This document shows positions 50,145-64,000 of a stretch of DNA of 64,000 nucleotides, piece by piece. The notes below the pieces were generated by a model. The model worked only from the letters and a program-made list of their open reading frames with translations, made no database searches and had not been told where the DNA came from. The translations under genes and the position numbers were made by a program. How positions within the stretch are numbered: position 1 is the first letter of the stretch; each line of letters opens with the position of its first letter. Location of the stretch: the NCBI GenBank assembly GCA_001898935.1, contig MKVT01000013.1, positions 1-64,000 on the forward strand, in the 5' to 3' direction. The DNA is from Paludibacter sp. 47-17 (GTDB lineage: Bacteria > Bacteroidota > Bacteroidia > Bacteroidales > Paludibacteraceae).

Positions 50145-50169
50145 ACGGTGATTTTTTTACATCAGCCTG

Positions 50170-50198
50170 CAAAGATATTCATTTTAATGTTAATTTTG
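50170..50198. promoter_or_regulatory. Divergent promoters for the MATE and alpha-2-macroglobulin genes
   Basis: TATCTTTG on the minus strand (50170-50177) serves the MATE gene, 25 nt ahead of its start. TAATTTTG on the plus strand (50191-50198) serves the A2M gene, 36 nt ahead. The boxes are only 13 nt apart, so the two polymerases would compete. Confidence 0.6.
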
Positions 50199-50234
50199 CC
50201 GGAACAATTCCGCCACTCCTCAAAAATATACGAT

Positions 50235-53200
50235 ATGAAACGTTTATGCTGGCTGCTTTTTGTAGTCTTTTTTCTGAACACAACCCTGAGTTCTCAATCG
50301 AATTCGTACGCCGATTCCTGGAAACTCGTCGACGAAGCATTGGAACAAAATCTTCCGGAAACCGCGCTCAGGCACCTTCGGGAACTGAACCTGCTGGTTG
50401 TGAAAAATCAAAATCTAACTCAACAAGTTAAAGTACGGCTCTACGAACTCCGGATTAAAGCCGAAAAAGATCCTTCACAAGTGGGATATTTATTGGCAGA
50501 AGCCGAAAAATCGGCCTCACTCCTACCCGTTTCGGCCGAAAAACAACTCATGTACCTGATGCTGGCCGACGCCTACCATCAGTATTTACGCAATAACAAC
50601 TATCAGCTTTCGCAACGAACTACCATCGCTCCCGTGTCCGGCGAAGGAAAGCCGACTCCACTACCCGACAATCTGAACGAATGGTCGAAAGGGGATGTAT
50701 TGCAAAAACTGACTGGATTGATTCAACTTACCCTTGCCGACTCGCTTCTGCTGCAGCAACGTGCAATCGTGCAAGGCGACGAATTTATCACTACCGACAC
50801 ACTGGCCTTGCAAAGTGCTACCACCTGGTACGACCTCGTGCTGCAAAAAATGCAGGATATGGACATGCTGGAGCCAGGCCAGGGCGATAAGAATTATTGG
50901 CTCAAGCGGCAGCTTGCCTTCCGACGTTCGCAACCCGAAATATTCCCGTTGGTGATTGCCGAATTACGCCTGGTCCACCAACAGTATCAAAACACGAACC
51001 AGTCCGGAGCATACCGGCATTATATCGCCCGGCTCGACAGCCTGCAAACGCTGTACAACCGGCACCCCGAAGTGGTGGAAATATTGTCGGAACTGGCATC
51101 GGCCTATATGAACCAAGAAGGCAACAAAGGCGGTAAACAAATTGCTTTTCGCCTGTGCGAAGAGGGAATCCGGCGCTTTCCCCATTATCCGCGCATCCAC
51201 CTGTTGAAAAACATTCAACTGCATCTGGCCACCCCGTCGATCCAACTGGCCACCAGCCGGTATTTCAGTTCGCCGGAACCGATTGTAACCACCTTGACAA
51301 CCACCAATGTGAAGCGACTGAAAGTCGAGCTGCACCGGATTATGGCCAGTGTGCAGGACTATCGCAAAACCTACCGGCGATCGTTCGGTGATTATGGATA
51401 CAAACCCTATCCACATACTCAGGTAGTCGACAGTCAGTGGATCGATATCGCGCAAAACCCCGGCTTCCTTCCGGTACACGACACGGTGCGGTTTGCAGCT
51501 CAGGGATACGGAATGTATGAAGTGCGGGTGATACCGGCCGATCCGGCGGTTAGCTACGACGAAAACAATCCGCTTCCCCACAGTGTAAGCATCGTGACCG
51601 ACCTTACGGCCATCCGTCGTATGGAAGGCAAACAACGACAGATACTATACGTGCTCGACCGCACCACCGGAGCTCCCGTAAAAGATGTTGAAGTGGGCTT
51701 ATTCAGGAATGAATGGATCGACGGCGAATACAGGCTGCTCAAAGAACAGCAACTGACAAGCGGTAAGGATGGTGCAGTACAACTGGCCAGCAAACAACTG
51801 CTGCCCACACTTACACTCGCGAAAGGCAAGGATGCCTGGTGCTATCTCGATATTTATCCGCTGTATCATCCGTTCGAAAATGCCGATCGGTTAAATACCC
51901 ATATCGGCATTTTTACCGACCGGAGCATTTATCGTCCCGGACAGGTGGTGTATTACAAGACTATAGCCTATAAAAGCGGAATGGGGATCGAAGAGGTACT
52001 CTCCGATACTACGCTCGAGGTACAGTTGCAACGCAGCTGGTCCACGACTATTGGCACACAAAAAGTCACCACCAATACATACGGATCGGCTAGCGGCAGT
52101 TTCGTATTGCCCGATGACGCCCCCACCGGATATTATTCCCTGAAAATCGGCAATCAGCAAGTCAGTTTCCAGGTAGAGGAATACAAACGCCCTACCTTCG
52201 AAGTAGAACTTACCTGCCAGAACGATGAAGTGGTATTCGGCCGGAAAGTCAGGCTCAACGGGCAGGCCCGTTCGCTGGCAGGATTTCCGGTACAACAGGC
52301 ACGGGTAAAGTACAGCATTGAACGCCGGATGATGGATATTTTCAGGTATTTCCCGTGGTTCCGTCACGAACTGGCGATTATTGCCGACGGTGAGCTCACC
52401 ACCGACAGCAACGGTAACTTCAGCCTGAGTTTTACCCCGGCGCCAGATCCCGACGAGAGTTTCAAAGGCACCAATTATTATCATTTTTCGGTCAAGGTGG
52501 AAGTAACTTCGCTCAACGGGGAAACTCAAAAAGGCCAAACCGGTATCAGGGTGGGTGAACGGAGTATGCTGCTAACGGCATCGGCCGATCCTGTCTGGGA
52601 ACAAAAAACACCGGGATGGGTAAAGGTGGAAGCCCGCAGCTTGAACGATTCGTTGCTGACGCGCACGGTGCAGTACGAATTATATTATCTTGCCGACAAC
52701 GGGAAATACAGAGAAGACCAAAATACCGAATACCGGAACCGGAAATTGGTGAAATCGGGTAGCTTTGTAAGCAGCGACAGTTTACAACTGAATCTGAGGA
52801 ATGCACCTACGGGACATTACCGGATTAAATTCTCGTCGCTCGACCACCGCAACGACACCGTAGTTGCCGAAAAAGACTTCATAGTTTATGCAGCCGGTCA
52901 CCGGCGCCCCCCTGTCACCACCTACCTTTGGAATCCTGCTCCCGAGATGGAAGCACAACCCGGAAGCAAGGTGAAACTCACCATCGGGACCTCGGTCAAA
53001 AAAGCATGGATTTTATATGAAGTCGTACAGGGCACCAACACCCTGTCGCGCCAGTGGATAAAACTGAATGCCCGGAACCGGCAAATCGACCTGCAACTAC
53101 CCGATACACTGAAAGATGGTGTTGTTGCAAAATTCGCGATAATGCGCGACGGCAATCTCCACAGTACCCACATTACGGTTCGAATCCCCATCGACGAGAA

Positions 53201-56051
53201 AGTATTGAAACCCGTACTTTCGACCTTCAGAGATAAATTACACCCCGGATCGAAGGAACACTGGACGGTGACATTGCCGGGATACCGGGGAACCGGCGCC
53301 GAGCTGCTGGCCGGGATGTACGATGCGTCGCTCGATCAGCTGCGGCAACACAACTGGGTAGTGTACTCCGGCAATAATGCGCGGTTCAGCGACAACTATC
53401 CATGGTATGTCACCTACCAGACCAAGACGGCATCCGGATGGTCGGGGAATCCCCGTTTCGCCGAGGTACAAGGCTATACATTTGCCAGCCTCAATTTTTA
53501 CGGCAGTCCCGAGGCCCTGGCCGGTTCGGGCCGGGAAGCATACTATTCGCAACCGATACGAATTAGAGGAGGGAGTCAAATGAAAGCTATGACCGATGAG
53601 GAAGTCGAAACTGCAGAGGCTGTTTTTATGCACGTTAGCGACGAGAATCGAACGGTAGTTACCGGTAGCGGCTCGCTGCAAGCAGAAAAGCCGATGGCAG
53701 TGCGGGAGAATTTTGCAGAGACAGCCTTCTTTTATCCGCATTTACGGGCCGATTCTTTAGGAAATTTCCACCTTGATTTCACCCTTCCCGAAAGCCTGAC
53801 CCGTTGGAGGTTAAAATTGCTGGCCCATACGCCCGATTTTTACAAAGGCCAGTCGGAATATACGTTTGAAAGCCGGAAAGACCTGATGGTCCAGCTGAAT
53901 CTTCCCCGGTTCGTACGGCAATCCGACCGCTGGGAAGTAAAAGCCACCGTGGTGAACAGGACTGCAACAGCACAAACAGCCGTGGTAAAACTCACCCTGA
54001 GCGATTATGCGCAACCCACACATGCGCTGTCGGGGATAGAAAAAACGATAGAACTGGCTGCCGGACACAGTGGTGTGGTTAGCTGGGAAGTACCTTCCCT
54101 GACGAATCGTGAGCTTGTAATCGCCCGTGCAGAAGCCCGCGCAGGTTCGTTCAGCGATGGCGAACAACGCTACCTGCCGGTATTGAGCGATAATATCCTC
54201 GTTACCGAAAGTGTTCCATTCATGATGCGTGAAGGAGAACGTAAAGAGATCGGGTTTTCAACAACAGTCGATCCTGCGGATATACGCCGGCAGGTGGTCG
54301 AATTCACGGCTCATCCGGCATGGGCTGCAGTTCAGGCCTTGCCGGTATTAGCAGTACCCGAAACCGAAAATGCCATCGATCTGCTCGGTGCATTGTATTC
54401 GAGTGTTACTGCACGTACCTTGCTGAACCGGCATCCGGAAATCAAGCAACAACTGCGCAGGATACAATTGCAGGGAGTAAGTGGCGAGAGTTTGATTTCG
54501 CAACTGGAAAAGAACCAGGACCTGAAAATGATGGTTTTAAAAGCAACACCCTGGCTGACGGAAGCAAACGACCAGACCGAACAACAGCGTCAGTTACTGC
54601 GTCTGTTCGACCAGCAACAACAACTGAACAACGAAGAAACGATGCTCCGGAAGCTCAGCAATTTGCAGTTGCCATCGGGCGCCTTCGGCTGGATGAGCGG
54701 AATGCCTGCCAATCGCTACATCACCCAGTTGCTGGTAGAGAAACTGCAGCGGATGTATTCCGACGAATCGTACGACCGACGAGACCATCTTAAACCACTC
54801 ATCGAGAAGGCTATCCTCTATCTCGACTCGCAACTGGCCAACGATCTGGCTCAATTGAAAGGCTACGACACTAAATTCGAATCGCGAAAAACCGTTACAG
54901 TGCTGCAATTGCATTACCTGGCCATCAGGGCCTTAATTCCGGCCAGTCCGGACACGAAGGCTGCGCTCGATGCAATTAACTATTACCGTCGCCAGATCGA
55001 CACCTATCGCCATGGATTCGGGATCTACGAAAAAGCGCTTGCAGCGCAGTTTTTCCATCGCACGGGCAGTCATAAGCAGGCGGCCGAAATGCTCAAATCG
55101 CTGCGTGAGCAAGCCGTTAGTCATCCCGACAAAGGAATGTACTGGGCAAAATTGCGCAGCAGTTGGTTATGGAACGAGCGCCCGTTGGGCATTCATGTCC
55201 GGGCGTTGGAGGCATTTCAGGAAGCAGGCGGCACACCGGGCGATATTGGAAGGATGCAGCTTTGGCTTCTCAACCAAAAACGCACCAACCAGTGGGATAG
55301 CCGGCTCACGACACTGGAAGCCGTCGTGGCGCTGCTGGCCGGTGACACGAACTGGTTTTCGTCCGATCAGCAATTCAGTTTCAAAGCGGCTTCGCCTGCC
55401 GGACTCACCGAACTGAAACCGGAAAAGGTGTTGCCGGGTAGTGGCTATTTCAAGCTGAACCTGGCGCCTGAACACACGAAACTAGTGGTGGAATCGCAGG
55501 CGCTTACCGCCCCAGGCGGTTCAAAAAGCGCTCCGGCATCGGGCAGTTCGCCTGCCTGGGGAGCCCTCTACCGCCAGTCGATGCAACCGATCGAACGGAT
55601 TCAGGCCTCGGGCAGCGAGTTGCAGCTGGAGCGAAGTTATTATCAGCTGATCACTACCGAGAAGCAACGAAAACTGATTGCCATCACCGGTGTGACTCAG
55701 TTGCAAGCAGGGGATAAAATCATCAGCCGGCTGGTCATTCGTGCGCAACATGATTATGAGTTTGTGGTGCTGCGCGATTCGAAAGCTGCAACGCTCGAGA
55801 TTACCGATCAGCTATCGCAGCTCCAGTACCGCGACGGGCTCCTGTATTTCCGTAGTCCGGGCGATCTTTCGACCCAATACTTTATCCAACATCTGCCCAA
55901 AGGCACCTATGTACTGGAAGAAGAGTACTACCTCACACACAGCGGTGAATTCAGTGGCGGGATCGCCCAGATTCAGTGTCTTTATGCCCCCGAATTCGTT
56001 GCGACAAGCAAGGGAATCAGGCTCAAAACCGGCTCGAAAGCAAATTTTTAA
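50235..56051 (+). CDS. Giant alpha-2-macroglobulin-family protein without thioester
   Basis: 1938 aa from ATG 50235 (MKRLCWLLFVVFFLNTTLSSQS), which is a signal peptide; the ORF-track start is 29 codons upstream and lacks this character. An N-terminal all-helical, TPR-like region (about 25-330) precedes the macroglobulin domains. MG2 shows as IFTDRSIYRPGQVVYYK (about 556-572). The A2M core begins near RENFAETAFFYPHLRAD (about 1155) with LPESLTRWRLKLLA. The thioester motif CxEQ expected in the following helical domain is absent, where LLGALYSSVTARTLL stands instead. Other bacterial A2Ms (E. coli YfaS type) also lack it. The protein may trap or inhibit proteases, or protect the periplasm; no pbpC gene lies next to it. 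Confidence 0.88.
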   Translation: MKRLCWLLFVVFFLNTTLSSQSNSYADSWKLVDEALEQNLPETALRHLRELNLLVVKNQNLTQQVKVRLYELRIKAEKDPSQVGYLLAEAEKSASLLPVSAEKQLMYLMLADAYHQYLRNNNYQLSQRTTIAPVSGEGKPTPLPDNLNEWSKGDVLQKLTGLIQLTLADSLLLQQRAIVQGDEFITTDTLALQSATTWYDLVLQKMQDMDMLEPGQGDKNYWLKRQLAFRRSQPEIFPLVIAELRLVHQQYQNTNQSGAYRHYIARLDSLQTLYNRHPEVVEILSELASAYMNQEGNKGGKQIAFRLCEEGIRRFPHYPRIHLLKNIQLHLATPSIQLATSRYFSSPEPIVTTLTTTNVKRLKVELHRIMASVQDYRKTYRRSFGDYGYKPYPHTQVVDSQWIDIAQNPGFLPVHDTVRFAAQGYGMYEVRVIPADPAVSYDENNPLPHSVSIVTDLTAIRRMEGKQRQILYVLDRTTGAPVKDVEVGLFRNEWIDGEYRLLKEQQLTSGKDGAVQLASKQLLPTLTLAKGKDAWCYLDIYPLYHPFENADRLNTHIGIFTDRSIYRPGQVVYYKTIAYKSGMGIEEVLSDTTLEVQLQRSWSTTIGTQKVTTNTYGSASGSFVLPDDAPTGYYSLKIGNQQVSFQVEEYKRPTFEVELTCQNDEVVFGRKVRLNGQARSLAGFPVQQARVKYSIERRMMDIFRYFPWFRHELAIIADGELTTDSNGNFSLSFTPAPDPDESFKGTNYYHFSVKVEVTSLNGETQKGQTGIRVGERSMLLTASADPVWEQKTPGWVKVEARSLNDSLLTRTVQYELYYLADNGKYREDQNTEYRNRKLVKSGSFVSSDSLQLNLRNAPTGHYRIKFSSLDHRNDTVVAEKDFIVYAAGHRRPPVTTYLWNPAPEMEAQPGSKVKLTIGTSVKKAWILYEVVQGTNTLSRQWIKLNARNRQIDLQLPDTLKDGVVAKFAIMRDGNLHSTHITVRIPIDEKVLKPVLSTFRDKLHPGSKEHWTVTLPGYRGTGAELLAGMYDASLDQLRQHNWVVYSGNNARFSDNYPWYVTYQTKTASGWSGNPRFAEVQGYTFASLNFYGSPEALAGSGREAYYSQPIRIRGGSQMKAMTDEEVETAEAVFMHVSDENRTVVTGSGSLQAEKPMAVRENFAETAFFYPHLRADSLGNFHLDFTLPESLTRWRLKLLAHTPDFYKGQSEYTFESRKDLMVQLNLPRFVRQSDRWEVKATVVNRTATAQTAVVKLTLSDYAQPTHALSGIEKTIELAAGHSGVVSWEVPSLTNRELVIARAEARAGSFSDGEQRYLPVLSDNILVTESVPFMMREGERKEIGFSTTVDPADIRRQVVEFTAHPAWAAVQALPVLAVPETENAIDLLGALYSSVTARTLLNRHPEIKQQLRRIQLQGVSGESLISQLEKNQDLKMMVLKATPWLTEANDQTEQQRQLLRLFDQQQQLNNEETMLRKLSNLQLPSGAFGWMSGMPANRYITQLLVEKLQRMYSDESYDRRDHLKPLIEKAILYLDSQLANDLAQLKGYDTKFESRKTVTVLQLHYLAIRALIPASPDTKAALDAINYYRRQIDTYRHGFGIYEKALAAQFFHRTGSHKQAAEMLKSLREQAVSHPDKGMYWAKLRSSWLWNERPLGIHVRALEAFQEAGGTPGDIGRMQLWLLNQKRTNQWDSRLTTLEAVVALLAGDTNWFSSDQQFSFKAASPAGLTELKPEKVLPGSGYFKLNLAPEHTKLVVESQALTAPGGSKSAPASGSSPAWGALYRQSMQPIERIQASGSELQLERSYYQLITTEKQRKLIAITGVTQLQAGDKIISRLVIRAQHDYEFVVLRDSKAATLEITDQLSQLQYRDGLLYFRSPGDLSTQYFIQHLPKGTYVLEEEYYLTHSGEFSGGIAQIQCLYAPEFVATSKGIRLKTGSKANF

Positions 56052-56109: not shown

Positions 56110-56208
56110 TGAGCAGTTGACCGAAAACGGTCGGCAACATACACTTAACTCAGTTACTTATCGCTTGTTTACAGCTAGTTATTGAACAAAAAACGGAAGA
56201 ACAAAAAC

Positions 56209-57216
56209 ATGGAAGAAGTTAAAAAACCCTCGGCCGAGAAACTGAAAGCACTTCAGCTGGCCATGGACAAAATTGAAAAAGATCACGGTCGTGGTACCAT
56301 TATGAAAATGGGCGACAATAAGGTAGAAGAAGTAGCCGTAATTTCAACCGGATCGATCGGATTGAACGCAGCCCTGGGAGTTGGAGGGTATCCGCGCGGA
56401 CGGGTGATCGAAATTTACGGTCCCGAATCGTCGGGTAAAACCACCCTGGCGATCCATGCCATTGCCGAAGCTCAAAAAGCAGGCGGCATTGCGGCCATTA
56501 TCGATGCCGAGCATGCCTTCGATCGTTTTTATGCCGAGAAACTGGGGGTCAATACCGACGATTTGCTGATTTCTCAGCCCGACAATGGTGAACAGGCCCT
56601 GGAGATTGCCGATCAGCTGATCCGCTCGTCGGCAGTCGATATTGTTGTGATCGACTCGGTAGCAGCGCTTACCCCCAAAGCCGAACTGGAAGGAGATATG
56701 GGCGATTCGAAGATGGGTCTGCAGGCCCGGTTGATGTCGCAGGCTTTACGTAAACTTACTGCCAACATCAATAAAACCAACACCACCTGTATTTTTATCA
56801 ATCAGTTGCGCGAAAAAATCGGGGTGATGTTCGGAAACCCCGAAACTACTACCGGCGGTAATGCATTGAAGTTCTATGCTTCGGTACGGTTGGATATTCG
56901 CCGCGTTTCGCAATTGAAGGAAGGCGACGAAGCTATCGGGAATCAAACCCGGGTGAAAGTGGTTAAAAACAAAGTCGCCCCGCCTTTCCGCAAAGCCGAA
57001 TTCGACATCATGTTTGGAGAAGGAATCTCGAAGACGGGCGAAATCCTCGACCTGGGAGTTGAGTACGGTATCGTGAAGAAAAGCGGCTCCTGGTTCAGCT
57101 ATGGCGATACGAAACTGGCACAGGGACGTGATGCATCAAAAGCCGTAATTCGCGACAATCCGGAACTGGCAGCCGAACTGGAAACCAAAATAATGGAAGC
57201 GATCAGGAACAAATAA
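56209..57216 (+). CDS. recA: Recombinase RecA
   Basis: 335 aa from ATG 56209 ([16 protein letters not shown]); the ORF-track start at 56182 is a TTG and is not chosen. Walker A is [11 protein letters not shown], Walker B is [14 protein letters not shown], and the [22 protein letters not shown] loop is the RecA signature. The C-terminus is short and lacks the long acidic tail of E. coli RecA. It faces rpoD, with a perfect hairpin between them. Confidence 0.97.
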
Positions 57217-60207: not shown

Positions 60208-61542
60208 TCAAAGGACTCCCTGAGCCATCATGGCTTTTGCCACTTTCAGAAAACCTGCCACATTGGCACCTTTCATATAATTTATATACCCATCCTGCTG
60301 CCGGCCATACCTGACACATTGTTCGTGAATATCCGACATGATTTGCTGCAATTTGGCATCCACTTCGGCAGCCGACCACGAAATATGCATGGCATTTTGA
60401 GTCATTTCCAATCCCGAGGTGGCAACACCCCCTGCATTGACAGCCTTACCGGGGCCATACATCACCTTATGGTCGAGCAACAAATCGATGGCCTCAGGAG
60501 TACAGCCCATATTGGAAAGCTCCCCTACGCACAACACACCATTGGCAATCAGCTGACGTGCATCGTTACCATTCAACTCATTCTGAGTGGCACACGGCAA
60601 TGCAATATCCACCTTCACTTCCCACGGACGCCTGCCCGCAAAGAACGGAACTCCATACTTTTCGGCATAAGGTTGTACGATATCGTTACAACTCAACCGC
60701 AAATCGACCATGTATTCAATTTTTTCGCCCGAAATTCCGTTTTCGTCGTATACATACCCATCGGGGCCTGAAATAGTAACCACCTTGGCTCCCAACTCGG
60801 TAGCTTTCAATGCAGCCCCCCATGCCACGTTTCCAAAGCCGGAAATAGCAACCGTTTTACCCTGAAGCGAATGACCGGCCGTTTCGAGCATTTGCTTCAC
60901 AAAATACAGCCCCCCGAAACCCGTAGCTTCCGGACGAATCAACGATCCTCCGAATTCCAACCCTTTACCGGTAAACACACCGGTATTCTCGCGAGCCAGT
61001 TTACGGTACATTCCATACAGGTAACCCACCTCGCGGGCGCCTACTCCAATGTCGCCGGCAGGCACATCGGTTTCGGGACCTATATGGCGCCACAATTCCA
61101 CCATAAAGGCCTGACAGAACCGCATTACCTCAGCATCCGACTTCCCGCGCGGATTGAAATCGGATCCCCCTTTGGCTCCACCCATCGGCAAAGTGGTAAG
61201 CGCATTTTTAAAGATTTGCTCAAAACCTAAGAACTTCAGAATCGAAAGGGTTACCGAAGAGTGAAAACGAATCCCTCCCTTGTAAGGACCGATGGCATTG
61301 TTGAACTGAACACGATAACCCAGATTCACCTGCACCTCACCCTTATCGTCGACCCAAGGCACTTTGAACGTGAAAATCCGGTCGGGCTCCACCAGTCGCT
61401 CGGCAATCTTGGCCTTCTCAAATTCGGGATGCTCGTTGTAAACTTCGGTGATGGTGCTTAACACTTCTCTCACGGCTTGCAGGTACTCCATTTCACCCGG
61501 ATGTTTGGCTTCAAGCCCCTGCATGATTTTTTCGATATTCAT
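60208..61542 (-). CDS. gdhA: NADP-type glutamate dehydrogenase
   Basis: 444 aa from ATG 61542 (MNIEKIMQGLEAKHPGE); the ORF-track start 36 codons upstream has no coding character. Glutamate and 2-oxoglutarate residues lie in GPYKGGIRFHSSV and PMGGAKGGSDFNPRGKSD. The nucleotide-binding fold has VAISGFGNVAWGAA. The length (about 445) and sequence style match the hexameric 50-kDa class used for ammonium assimilation. It is transcribed alone. Confidence 0.95.
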   Translation of the reverse strand: MNIEKIMQGLEAKHPGEMEYLQAVREVLSTITEVYNEHPEFEKAKIAERLVEPDRIFTFKVPWVDDKGEVQVNLGYRVQFNNAIGPYKGGIRFHSSVTLSILKFLGFEQIFKNALTTLPMGGAKGGSDFNPRGKSDAEVMRFCQAFMVELWRHIGPETDVPAGDIGVGAREVGYLYGMYRKLARENTGVFTGKGLEFGGSLIRPEATGFGGLYFVKQMLETAGHSLQGKTVAISGFGNVAWGAALKATELGAKVVTISGPDGYVYDENGISGEKIEYMVDLRLSCNDIVQPYAEKYGVPFFAGRRPWEVKVDIALPCATQNELNGNDARQLIANGVLCVGELSNMGCTPEAIDLLLDHKVMYGPGKAVNAGGVATSGLEMTQNAMHISWSAAEVDAKLQQIMSDIHEQCVRYGRQQDGYINYMKGANVAGFLKVAKAMMAQGVL

Positions 61543-61804
61543 AAATATTAGTTTTAAAAGTATGGTAGATTGAAAGTAGATTGTTAGTTTTGTGGTCGGT
61601 TTAAACAAAGAAGACTGATAAAAGTATGAAATACCAACAGAATCTGCCATTTTGTAAGCAAAAGTCGCCGAAAACGCCCGCTTATCCTCTGTTCAATCCT
61701 AAATACAACTATCAGTCCGTTAAAAAACTTACCATTTTATTTTCAGCAAATATAGAAGTTTTTTTCCGAATCCAAAACATATCCGAAAGAAAATTTTCAT
61801 CAAA
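61543..61804. other. Divergent intergenic region between gdhA and the receiver/PPDK_N gene
   Basis: 262 nt, AT-rich, with no coding frame. On the minus strand TACTTTTA (61555-61562) is a one-mismatch -7 box close to the gdhA start. No convincing -7 box is seen for the plus-strand gene. Confidence 0.4.
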
Positions 61805-64000
61805 ATGAATACTATCTACCGCAACATAAAACAGCTCTATTTCAAGGATACTTCCTTTGCCGACCTGATGAAGCACCGGATCTATAATATCCTCTTGTAT
61901 GCCAGTAAATACGACTCGTTTATGCTCGAAGAAGACGGCCGGATCGACGAACAGATCTTCAACGAATACACGGCGCTCAACCTTCGTTATCCTCCCCGTT
62001 TCACCCTGGTATCCGGCGAAGAGGAAGCCTATGCCCAATTACGCGACCGCGCCTACGACCTTATCATCTCGATGCCCAGCGGCGACAGCATCAATCCATT
62101 CGAATGGGCCAAGGGAGTGAAATCGGTATACCCCGACATTCCGATCGTGGTACTGACGCCTTTCTCGAAATCGGTTTCAAAACGCATCGCCAACGAAGAC
62201 CTCAGCGCCATCGATTACGTATTCAGCTGGCTGGGCAACCCCGACATCCTGCTCGCGATCACCAAGATGCTGGAAGATAAGATGAATGTGGAGGAAGACG
62301 TCAGTTCGGTAGGGGTTCAGGTCATTCTTTTTGTGGAAGACTCGATTCACTTTTATTCCTCCATCCTGCCTCATCTGTACAAATGCGTATTTCAGCAATC
62401 GAAGTCGTTCATGACCGAGGCGCTGAACGAGCACGAACAAATGCTCAGGATGCGCGGCCGGCCGAAAATTCTGTTCGCACGCACCTACGAAGAAGCCATG
62501 ACCTTGTACCTGAAATACAAGGATAATATGCTGGGCGTGATTTCCGACGTTAGCTTTCTTCGCAACGGAGAGCGCAACCGGCAAGCCGGAATCGACCTCT
62601 GCCGCGAAATCCGGAGGATGGATAAATACATCCCGCTTATTGTTCAATCGTCGGACAACGGCAACAAAGAGGCTACCGAAGCGTTTAAAGGCACATTCCT
62701 GAGCAAGAATTCGAAAACCCTGTTGAAGGAATTAAAAGATACGATTAACAACAACTTCGGCTTCACCGACTTCAACTTCATCAACCCTGCTACCGGAGAG
62801 GTAGAGGCGCGGGTACGAAACCTACGGGGGCTGCAGGATGTGGTTTTTTCGCTGAGCGACGAAAGCTTGCTTTACCACGTGGGACGGTACGATATTTCGC
62901 GCTGGCTGTATTCGAGGGCCATGTTCCCATTGGCCGAATTTCTCAAAAACACGAACATTTACGACCCCGGCATTGAAGATCTGAACAAGCTCCGGCAGGT
63001 TATTTTCGGCGCTATCGTAAAATACCGGAAGATCAAAAACCGCGGGGTGGTTGCCGTTTTTCAGCGCGACCGGTTCGACCAGTACTCCAACTTTGCCCGT
63101 ATTGGTGAAGGTTCGATGGGAGGCAAAGGGCGTGGCCTGGCTTTTATCGATTCGATGATTAAGCGTAACGAACAATTGCAGCAGTATGAAAATGCGCAGA
63201 TTATGATTCCGAAAACGGTGGTGATCTGCACCGATATCTTCACCGAATTTATGGAGACCAATCAGCTGTATCCCATAGCTCTTTCCGATTTGCCCGACGA
63301 AGATATTCTGAAACATTTTCTGAATGCCCGTATTCCCAAATCGCTCATCGCCGATTTATTTTCGTTTTTGGGCGTTGTGAACACTCCTATTGCCGTACGC
63401 TCGTCCAGCCTGCTCGAAGACTCGCACTATCAGCCTTTTGCCGGCGTATACTCTACCTACATGGTGCCTTACAACCACGAAAGCCGCACGCAAACGCTGT
63501 CGCTGCTCACCGAAGCCATTAAGGCCGTATACGCCTCGGTATTTTTCAGGCAAAGTAAGATGTACATGACGGCTACCAAAAACGTGATCGACGAAGAAAA
63601 AATGGCTATCGTACTTCAGGAAACGGTAGGTAATGCGCACGACAACCGCTTCTATCCTTCCTTTTCGGGAGTGGCCCGGTCGCTGAACTATTATCCTATA
63701 GGCTCGGAAAAGCCCGAAGACGGCATAGCCAATATAGCCATGGGGCTGGGAAAATACATCGTCGACGGTGGGGTCACCCTTCGCTTCTCACCCGCTTACC
63801 CCCACAACATCCTGCAAACCTCGAGTTTGGAATACGCGCTCCGTGAAACCCAGACTCATTTTAACGCACTCGACCTGAACAACATTCACTTTGTACCGCA
63901 GGTAGATGACGGATTTAACTTATTGAAAATAAATGTACAGGATGCGTTAAAAGACGGCACCCTGAAGTACCTTGCTTCCACTTTCGATCCGCGCGAACAG
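61805..64000 (+). CDS. Receiver-domain / PEP-pyruvate-binding (PPDK_N) fusion protein, 3' end outside window
   Basis: 732 codons from ATG 61805 (MNTIYRNIKQLYF) without a stop; absent from the ORF track because it runs off the edge. Residues 1 to about 150 resemble a degenerate receiver-like fold (YDLIISMPSGD ... IPIVVLTPFSK). A second receiver at about 170-310 keeps the full phospho-acceptor set: E178/D179 (LFVEDS), D248 (GVISDVSF), S282 (VQSSD) and K301 (FLSKNSK), with about 25 extra residues before D248. From about 370 it matches the PPDK/PEP-synthase nucleotide-binding domain (GEGSMGGKGRGLAFI near 430; PIAVRSSSLLEDS near 528; FAGVYSTYMVPYNHE). A PEP synthase-like activity under phosphorylation control is an inference; the swivelling histidine domain would lie beyond the window. 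Confidence 0.8.
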   Translation, partial: MNTIYRNIKQLYFKDTSFADLMKHRIYNILLYASKYDSFMLEEDGRIDEQIFNEYTALNLRYPPRFTLVSGEEEAYAQLRDRAYDLIISMPSGDSINPFEWAKGVKSVYPDIPIVVLTPFSKSVSKRIANEDLSAIDYVFSWLGNPDILLAITKMLEDKMNVEEDVSSVGVQVILFVEDSIHFYSSILPHLYKCVFQQSKSFMTEALNEHEQMLRMRGRPKILFARTYEEAMTLYLKYKDNMLGVISDVSFLRNGERNRQAGIDLCREIRRMDKYIPLIVQSSDNGNKEATEAFKGTFLSKNSKTLLKELKDTINNNFGFTDFNFINPATGEVEARVRNLRGLQDVVFSLSDESLLYHVGRYDISRWLYSRAMFPLAEFLKNTNIYDPGIEDLNKLRQVIFGAIVKYRKIKNRGVVAVFQRDRFDQYSNFARIGEGSMGGKGRGLAFIDSMIKRNEQLQQYENAQIMIPKTVVICTDIFTEFMETNQLYPIALSDLPDEDILKHFLNARIPKSLIADLFSFLGVVNTPIAVRSSSLLEDSHYQPFAGVYSTYMVPYNHESRTQTLSLLTEAIKAVYASVFFRQSKMYMTATKNVIDEEKMAIVLQETVGNAHDNRFYPSFSGVARSLNYYPIGSEKPEDGIANIAMGLGKYIVDGGVTLRFSPAYPHNILQTSSLEYALRETQTHFNALDLNNIHFVPQVDDGFNLLKINVQDALKDGTLKYLASTFDPREQ

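Follow-up and report, generated by a model that had tools for sequence, protein, structure and literature searches.

Fusions of a receiver domain (REC) to a PPDK_N ATP-grasp domain are already known. The REC-PPDK combination was termed 'Bacteroides-like' in a 2018 passage (PMC5847659), and a survey of receivers found those without the phospho-accepting aspartate to be enriched with pyruvate phosphate dikinase outputs (PMC4395418). In the open-licence literature that we searched, we found no paper that links REC-PPDK to glutamate dehydrogenase (GDH). PPDK_N domains also occur in rifampin phosphotransferase, HpeI and phenylphosphate synthase-type enzymes, which phosphorylate small molecules. A second line of earlier work concerns GDH itself: the title of Baggio & Morrison (1996; via PMC4539542) refers to one or more trans-acting genes downstream of Bacteroides thetaiotaomicron gdhA in connection with GDH activity. 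No follow-up on this gene is apparent in the literature searched, and the locus tags of the B. thetaiotaomicron locus were not found in papers. A downstream segment of ~3 kb reportedly restored activity in trans and left transcription unaffected.

Here we describe a REC-REC-PPDK_N gene at the end of a 64,000-nucleotide stretch of DNA from Paludibacter sp. 47-17 (the window). Almost certainly, the encoded protein belongs to the architecture named in PMC5847659. New here are its receiver pair, its missing His and PEP domains, its unclassified C-terminal domain and its linkage to GDH.

Gene and Domain Layout

The gene begins with an ATG, and its reading frame is still open at the window end (Table 1). 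The complete gene (G000:C13:61805-64789; L002:3806-6790) measures 2985 bp and encodes 994 residues plus a stop codon. As remarked in the original prediction, the ORF track does not list the gene; truncation by the window end is the only cause. Pfam assigns PPDK_N (PF01326) to residues 437–814 of the complete protein with an E value of 1.9e-42, above the cut-off and over profile positions 3–319 of 328. The receiver match itself (residues 259–295, E 1e-4) lies under the Pfam cut-off and is weak taken alone. A sub-threshold match to DUF5752 covers residues 322–400. NCBIfam holds no family for the 994-residue protein; the best matches are PEP synthases, far below threshold, and a match to NF041857 that spans part of PPDK_N scores 20 against a cut-off of 999. 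Elsewhere in the window, a 1967-aa ORF (50148-56051, plus strand) with a secreted macroglobulin-like look lies upstream of recA (56182-57216).

Table 1. Features of the REC-REC-PPDK_N locus, in window coordinates
Feature	Position	Strand	Basis or remark
gdhA-like NADP-type glutamate dehydrogenase, divergent neighbour	60208..61542	-	homology
Intergenic region shared by divergent gdhA and REC-PPDK_N gene	61543..61804	.	
REC-REC-PPDK_N gene, first 732 of 994 codons	61805..64000	+	rest up to G000:C13:64789, beyond window
REC1, aa 24–169, receiver fold, pseudo-receiver, Met90 replaces acceptor Asp	61874..62311	+	homologue alignment, AlphaFold2, hhalign
REC2, aa 170–320, complete receiver	62312..62764	+	homologue alignment, AlphaFold2, hhalign
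E178-D179, acidic pair of REC2	62336..62341	+	conserved 110/110
D248 of REC2, predicted phospho-acceptor	62546..62548	+	conserved 110/110; hhalign
S282 of REC2	62648..62650	+	conserved 110/110
K301 of REC2	62705..62707	+	conserved 110/110; hhalign
Linker, aa 321–425	62765..63079	+	sub-threshold DUF5752 likeness, here and in homologues
PPDK_N ATP-grasp, aa 437–814, in-window part	63113..64000	+	invariant K441, R532, E538-D539, Q605

Two Receivers in Series

Conservation of the receiver residues was counted in 110 homologues with 36–92% identity. The original prediction had read a receiver with intact E-D, D, S and K residues, and had named a receiver fold at residues 160–310 and the conservation of D248 and K301 as checks. 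All of this was borne out, and the proposed fusion of such a phosphorylatable receiver in front of PPDK_N holds. E178, D179, D248, S282 and K301 are present in every homologue, down to 36% identity. Profile–profile comparison (hhalign) of residues 168–320 with ordinary receivers gave 95.5% and placed D248 on the phospho-Asp and K301 on the Lys. An AlphaFold2 model computed from a 69-sequence alignment (pLDDT 84.6) contains two consecutive (βα)5 domains, with D248 at the end of β3 and K301 at the end of β5. Foldseek returned HpeI, a PPDK_N protein, as the best match, followed by REC-REC structures of PleD.

The other receiver-like segment, which had been noticed in front, also has a receiver fold (97.0% for residues 24–170 against ordinary receivers by hhalign), though it has no acceptor Asp. 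Position 90 is Met or Thr in 109 of the 110 homologues. Since the REC2 residues are invariant and the acceptor Asp of REC1 is replaced, REC1 is a pseudo-receiver and REC2 is a complete receiver. The enrichment of Asp-less receivers described in PMC4395418 fits the state of REC1. No histidine kinase gene adjoins the REC-PPDK_N gene in the window.

An ATP-Grasp Domain with an Unclassified Partner

Two of the characteristic PPDK_N residues, E781 and Q800, are encoded past the window end. Together with K441, R532, E538-D539 and Q605, they are kept without exception in the 124 sequences compared, among them REC-less paralogues of about 30% identity. The ATP-grasp core aligned weakly with true PPDKs (20%, hhalign) and better with PEP synthase/RPH sequences, and the protein shows sequence likeness to rifampin phosphotransferase structures.

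The C-terminal domain contains the invariant core G-x-GRWG…D…LG…E…S-x-G-x-HFF, which is common to all paralogues. Over 79 members, no consistent Pfam family was found for residues 800–994. A profile search of this domain against solved structures gave chance matches only, and a model of the isolated domain (pLDDT 87.9, pTM 0.86) matched no PDB fold at E ≤ 0.001. Comparison with 15 genuine PEP-utilizers His domains by hhalign returned a probability of 0.3%. We also considered whether H923 lies inside a diverged PEP-utilizers swivelling domain, an idea raised by the similar look of a His that starts a helix after a strand; we rejected it on the fold search and the hhalign result. H923 may nevertheless be catalytic.

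The original prediction had suggested that the fusion would place PEP/pyruvate chemistry under kinase control, and had proposed to look for phosphohistidine and PEP-binding domains in the rest of the gene. Neither was found in the 994 residues: Pfam, hhalign and the fold search located no PEP-utilizers phosphohistidine domain, and the PEP_utilizers_C PEP/pyruvate barrel has no match in the protein and no space in it. Because both domains are absent, the REC-REC-PPDK_N protein is not a PEP synthase. Two-component control of a PEP synthase or PPDK is therefore a very improbable reading, even though the protein carries PPDK_N and its best NCBIfam matches, far below threshold as they are, come from PEP synthases. 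Moreover, a 938-aa frame of this genome codes for a PEP-utilizers protein of its own. The other role that had been proposed for PPDK_N, one in signalling, suits the data better.

Distribution and Paralogue Types

Matches to the gene occur in 104 of 121 sampled Bacteroidales genomes, in 49 of 50 sampled genomes of the Phocaeicola-type genus and in 58 of 61 of the Bacteroides-type genus; outside Bacteroidales, many Bacteroidota families carry it. Bacteroidales possess two types. Type A (~1000 aa) is the form found in the window, and type B, with frames mostly of ~1160 aa and an additional N-terminal region, coexists with it. Three type-B paralogues (L064:3281-6730, L055:8765-12259 and L065:3711-8363) comprise ~1160–1550 aa with extra N-terminal regions, and those of L064 and L065 adjoin a gene that is, judged by sequence, a LuxR-type response regulator.

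Other Bacteroidota contain REC-less forms of ~580 aa as well as longer ones (~1060 aa) that carry NTP_transf_2 at the C-terminus. The ~580-aa paralogues (L052:6984-8723 and L056:6913-8652) consist of PPDK_N and the C-terminal domain only, lie in operons with a second GDH and probably represent the minimal functional core. The ~1060-aa paralogues (L052:3808-6987, L056, L057, L062 and relatives) combine an N-terminal region, PPDK_N, the GRWG/HFFQ domain and NTP_transf_2, and adjoin the second GDH family. This nucleotidyltransferase might modify GDH.

The plasmid collection yielded matches of two sorts, records of megareplicon or chromosome-like character and Deinococcus PPDK_N proteins that are unrelated. 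The gene itself is present on two records filed as plasmids, L161 (NZ_OY725790.1) and L162 (NC_022111.1). L161 probably represents chromosomal sequence, or else a replicon of chromosome-like character, since valS, ruvC and two GDH genes are present on it as well.

Linkage to Glutamate Dehydrogenase

The strongest clue to function is the gene's surroundings, which point to GDH as the target, a protein that the original prediction left unmentioned. In the window, the divergent neighbour is a gdhA-like gene; to judge by homologues, its start is probably Met 37 within the ORF as listed. The REC-PPDK_N gene also adjoins GDH in Bacteroides, Phocaeicola, Parabacteroides and elsewhere in Bacteroidota. 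GDH was present in 12 of 14 neighbourhoods that had been picked for their paralogue arrangements, before GDH was considered. An order-wide count covered 121 Bacteroidales genomes with 83 type-A and 53 type-B genes. GDH lies within 600 bp of 27 type-A genes (expected 0.12; binomial P ~1e-55, ignoring shared ancestry) and within 3 kb of 30 (expected ~0.35); 13 type-B genes have GDH within 3 kb (expected 0.22; binomial P ~1e-19, with shared ancestry likewise ignored). These P values overstate the number of independent events, since presence and absence of adjacency are scattered on the tree with 9 changes, against 25.9 after shuffling. Outside the order, 19 of 25 loci contain GDH within flanks of just 1.5 kb.

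Four arrangements occur: divergent, convergent, same strand with GDH downstream, and same strand with GDH upstream. Since they vary between lineages, the pair either stayed together through rearrangement or met repeatedly. In Parabacteroides distasonis, gdhA is directly divergent from a 'PEP/pyruvate-binding domain-containing protein'. Two operons (L053 and L059) read GDH / REC-PPDK_N / HisKA_3 kinase / LuxR-type regulator / GDH / REC-PPDK_N / GDH2. At L055:12260-15171, 2-oxoacid:ferredoxin oxidoreductase genes follow a series of GDH, type-A and type-B genes; this enzyme could supply or use 2-oxoglutarate, a substrate of GDH.

The most telling clue comes from the REC-less paralogues. The GDH genes beside the 580-aa and 1060-aa relatives belong to another family, which shares only about 31% identity with gdhA. 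This paralogue-specific pairing speaks against the idea that a nitrogen regulon alone placed the gene beside gdhA and that its target is unrelated, for example GS/GOGAT or a transporter. The differing arrangements (divergent, convergent, same strand) also mean that a shared promoter cannot account for the linkage. We thus give little credence to shared regulation as the full explanation, although Paludibacter-type genomes have a POT transporter linked to the gene.

This transporter gene of the POT family (L002:6803-8344) lies outside the window on the same strand, starting 12 bp downstream of the REC-PPDK_N gene, and relatives of it occur in 25 of the related loci, mostly from Paludibacter. 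The arrangement suggests an operon tied to peptide nitrogen. In Bacteroides-type genomes the gene is found among gdhA, a second GDH gene and genes whose sequences resemble prolyl oligopeptidase and Xaa-Pro aminopeptidase. Such neighbours would suit a receiver-gated small-molecule phosphotransferase, in which PPDK_N and a specificity domain phosphorylate a metabolite connected with glutamate or peptide nitrogen metabolism, and GDH is a neighbour in the pathway and not the target. The structural match to HpeI and the likeness to rifampin phosphotransferase point in the same direction. However, the constant neighbour across the phylum is GDH, for the REC-less paralogues as well, and not a substrate-specific pathway. 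We therefore regard a small-molecule phosphotransferase as an unlikely explanation.

Linkage to GDH also has its limits. About two-thirds of the Bacteroidales type-A genes do not adjoin GDH, and at least 14 well-sequenced genomes contain GDH and no REC-PPDK_N gene. It follows from the latter that GDH has no universal need for this protein.

Proposed Function

The best explanation of these observations, to which we assign a probability of about one-half, is that the protein acts as a response regulator with an enzymatic, ATP-dependent output that controls GDH activity under two-component command. The intact receiver, the ATP-grasp residues kept throughout, the linkage to GDH in four arrangements, the paralogue-specific pairing and the L053 and L059 operons argue for this function; the many unlinked type-A genes, the genomes with GDH alone and a C-terminal domain that differs from the PEP-utilizers phosphohistidine domain weaken it. 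We infer GDH as the target, control at the post-translational level, and the chemistry. A histidine kinase would phosphorylate D248 of REC2, with REC1 serving as a structural or dimerizing pseudo-receiver. Phosphorylated REC2 would then switch the PPDK_N ATP-grasp module, which would work with the C-terminal GRWG/HFFQN domain, this standing where PEP-utilizers His and PEP domains are normally found. GDH activity would thereby be tuned post-translationally. The most likely means is an ATP-dependent transfer of a (pyro)phosphoryl or nucleotidyl group, with GDH itself or a close partner as acceptor. A more specific and rather doubtful version has PPDK_N charge the GRWG/HFFQN domain (His923) with a phosphate or nucleotide that then moves on to GDH. 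The response-regulator output would in that case be a new type of ATP-grasp transferase, and Bacteroidota would possess a two-component covalent switch on ammonia assimilation.

GDH is often regulated by effectors and partner proteins. The protein might accordingly be a non-catalytic regulator, with the ATP-grasp domain as sensor of ATP/ADP or PEP and the receiver as sensor of a kinase; it would bind GDH or another partner and transfer no phosphate. The lack of a recognised phosphohistidine domain would be consistent with such a role. Binding alone would, however, hardly demand that catalytic-type ATP-grasp residues and the SxGxHFF motif remain invariant in paralogues of ~30% identity, and we consider a purely non-catalytic role improbable.

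An ATP-dependent regulator of GDH would also offer an identity for the factor of 1996. In most Bacteroides genomes compared, the gene adjoins a GDH gene or lies between two, and in three it is convergently downstream of one. In view of this downstream position and of its length of 2985 bp, we propose it as a candidate for the Baggio & Morrison factor, on the basis of the title of that paper and of the reported effect of the ~3-kb segment. A conserved candidate makes the question of the 1996 gene experimentally answerable. The human gut is dominated by Bacteroides and its relatives, and ammonia enters their metabolism by way of, among others, GDH, which converts it into glutamate.

Comparison with Known Systems

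The protein shares the PPDK_N ATP-grasp domain and the conserved ATP-site motifs with PEP synthase and PPDK. In contrast to these enzymes, it lacks both the PEP-utilizers phosphohistidine domain and the PEP_utilizers_C barrel, and it carries receivers in front and an unrelated domain at the C-terminus. With rifampin phosphotransferase, HpeI and phenylphosphate synthase it has in common a PPDK_N domain that is paired with non-PEP chemistry, and HpeI is the top structural match. Of the PPDK_N, small-molecule-binding and His domains that make up the rifampin phosphotransferase/phenylphosphate synthase type, it contains only PPDK_N; the substrate and His modules have given way to receivers and the GRWG/HFFQN domain. 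The latter domain would be a new partner for the PPDK_N enzyme class. PleD, the top structural match of receiver type, also carries two receivers in tandem, of which one is a pseudo-receiver. Here the second receiver is complete instead of the first, and the output is an ATP-grasp domain instead of GGDEF. The 2018 passage (PMC5847659) describes the same fusion of REC to PPDK_N and is confined to the architecture; it mentions neither the tandem receivers and the C-terminal domain nor the lack of His and PEP domains and the link to GDH. As a candidate for the factor of 1996, the present gene would share with it the occurrence in Bacteroides, a place beside or behind a GDH gene, a size of ~3 kb and a proposed effect on GDH activity.
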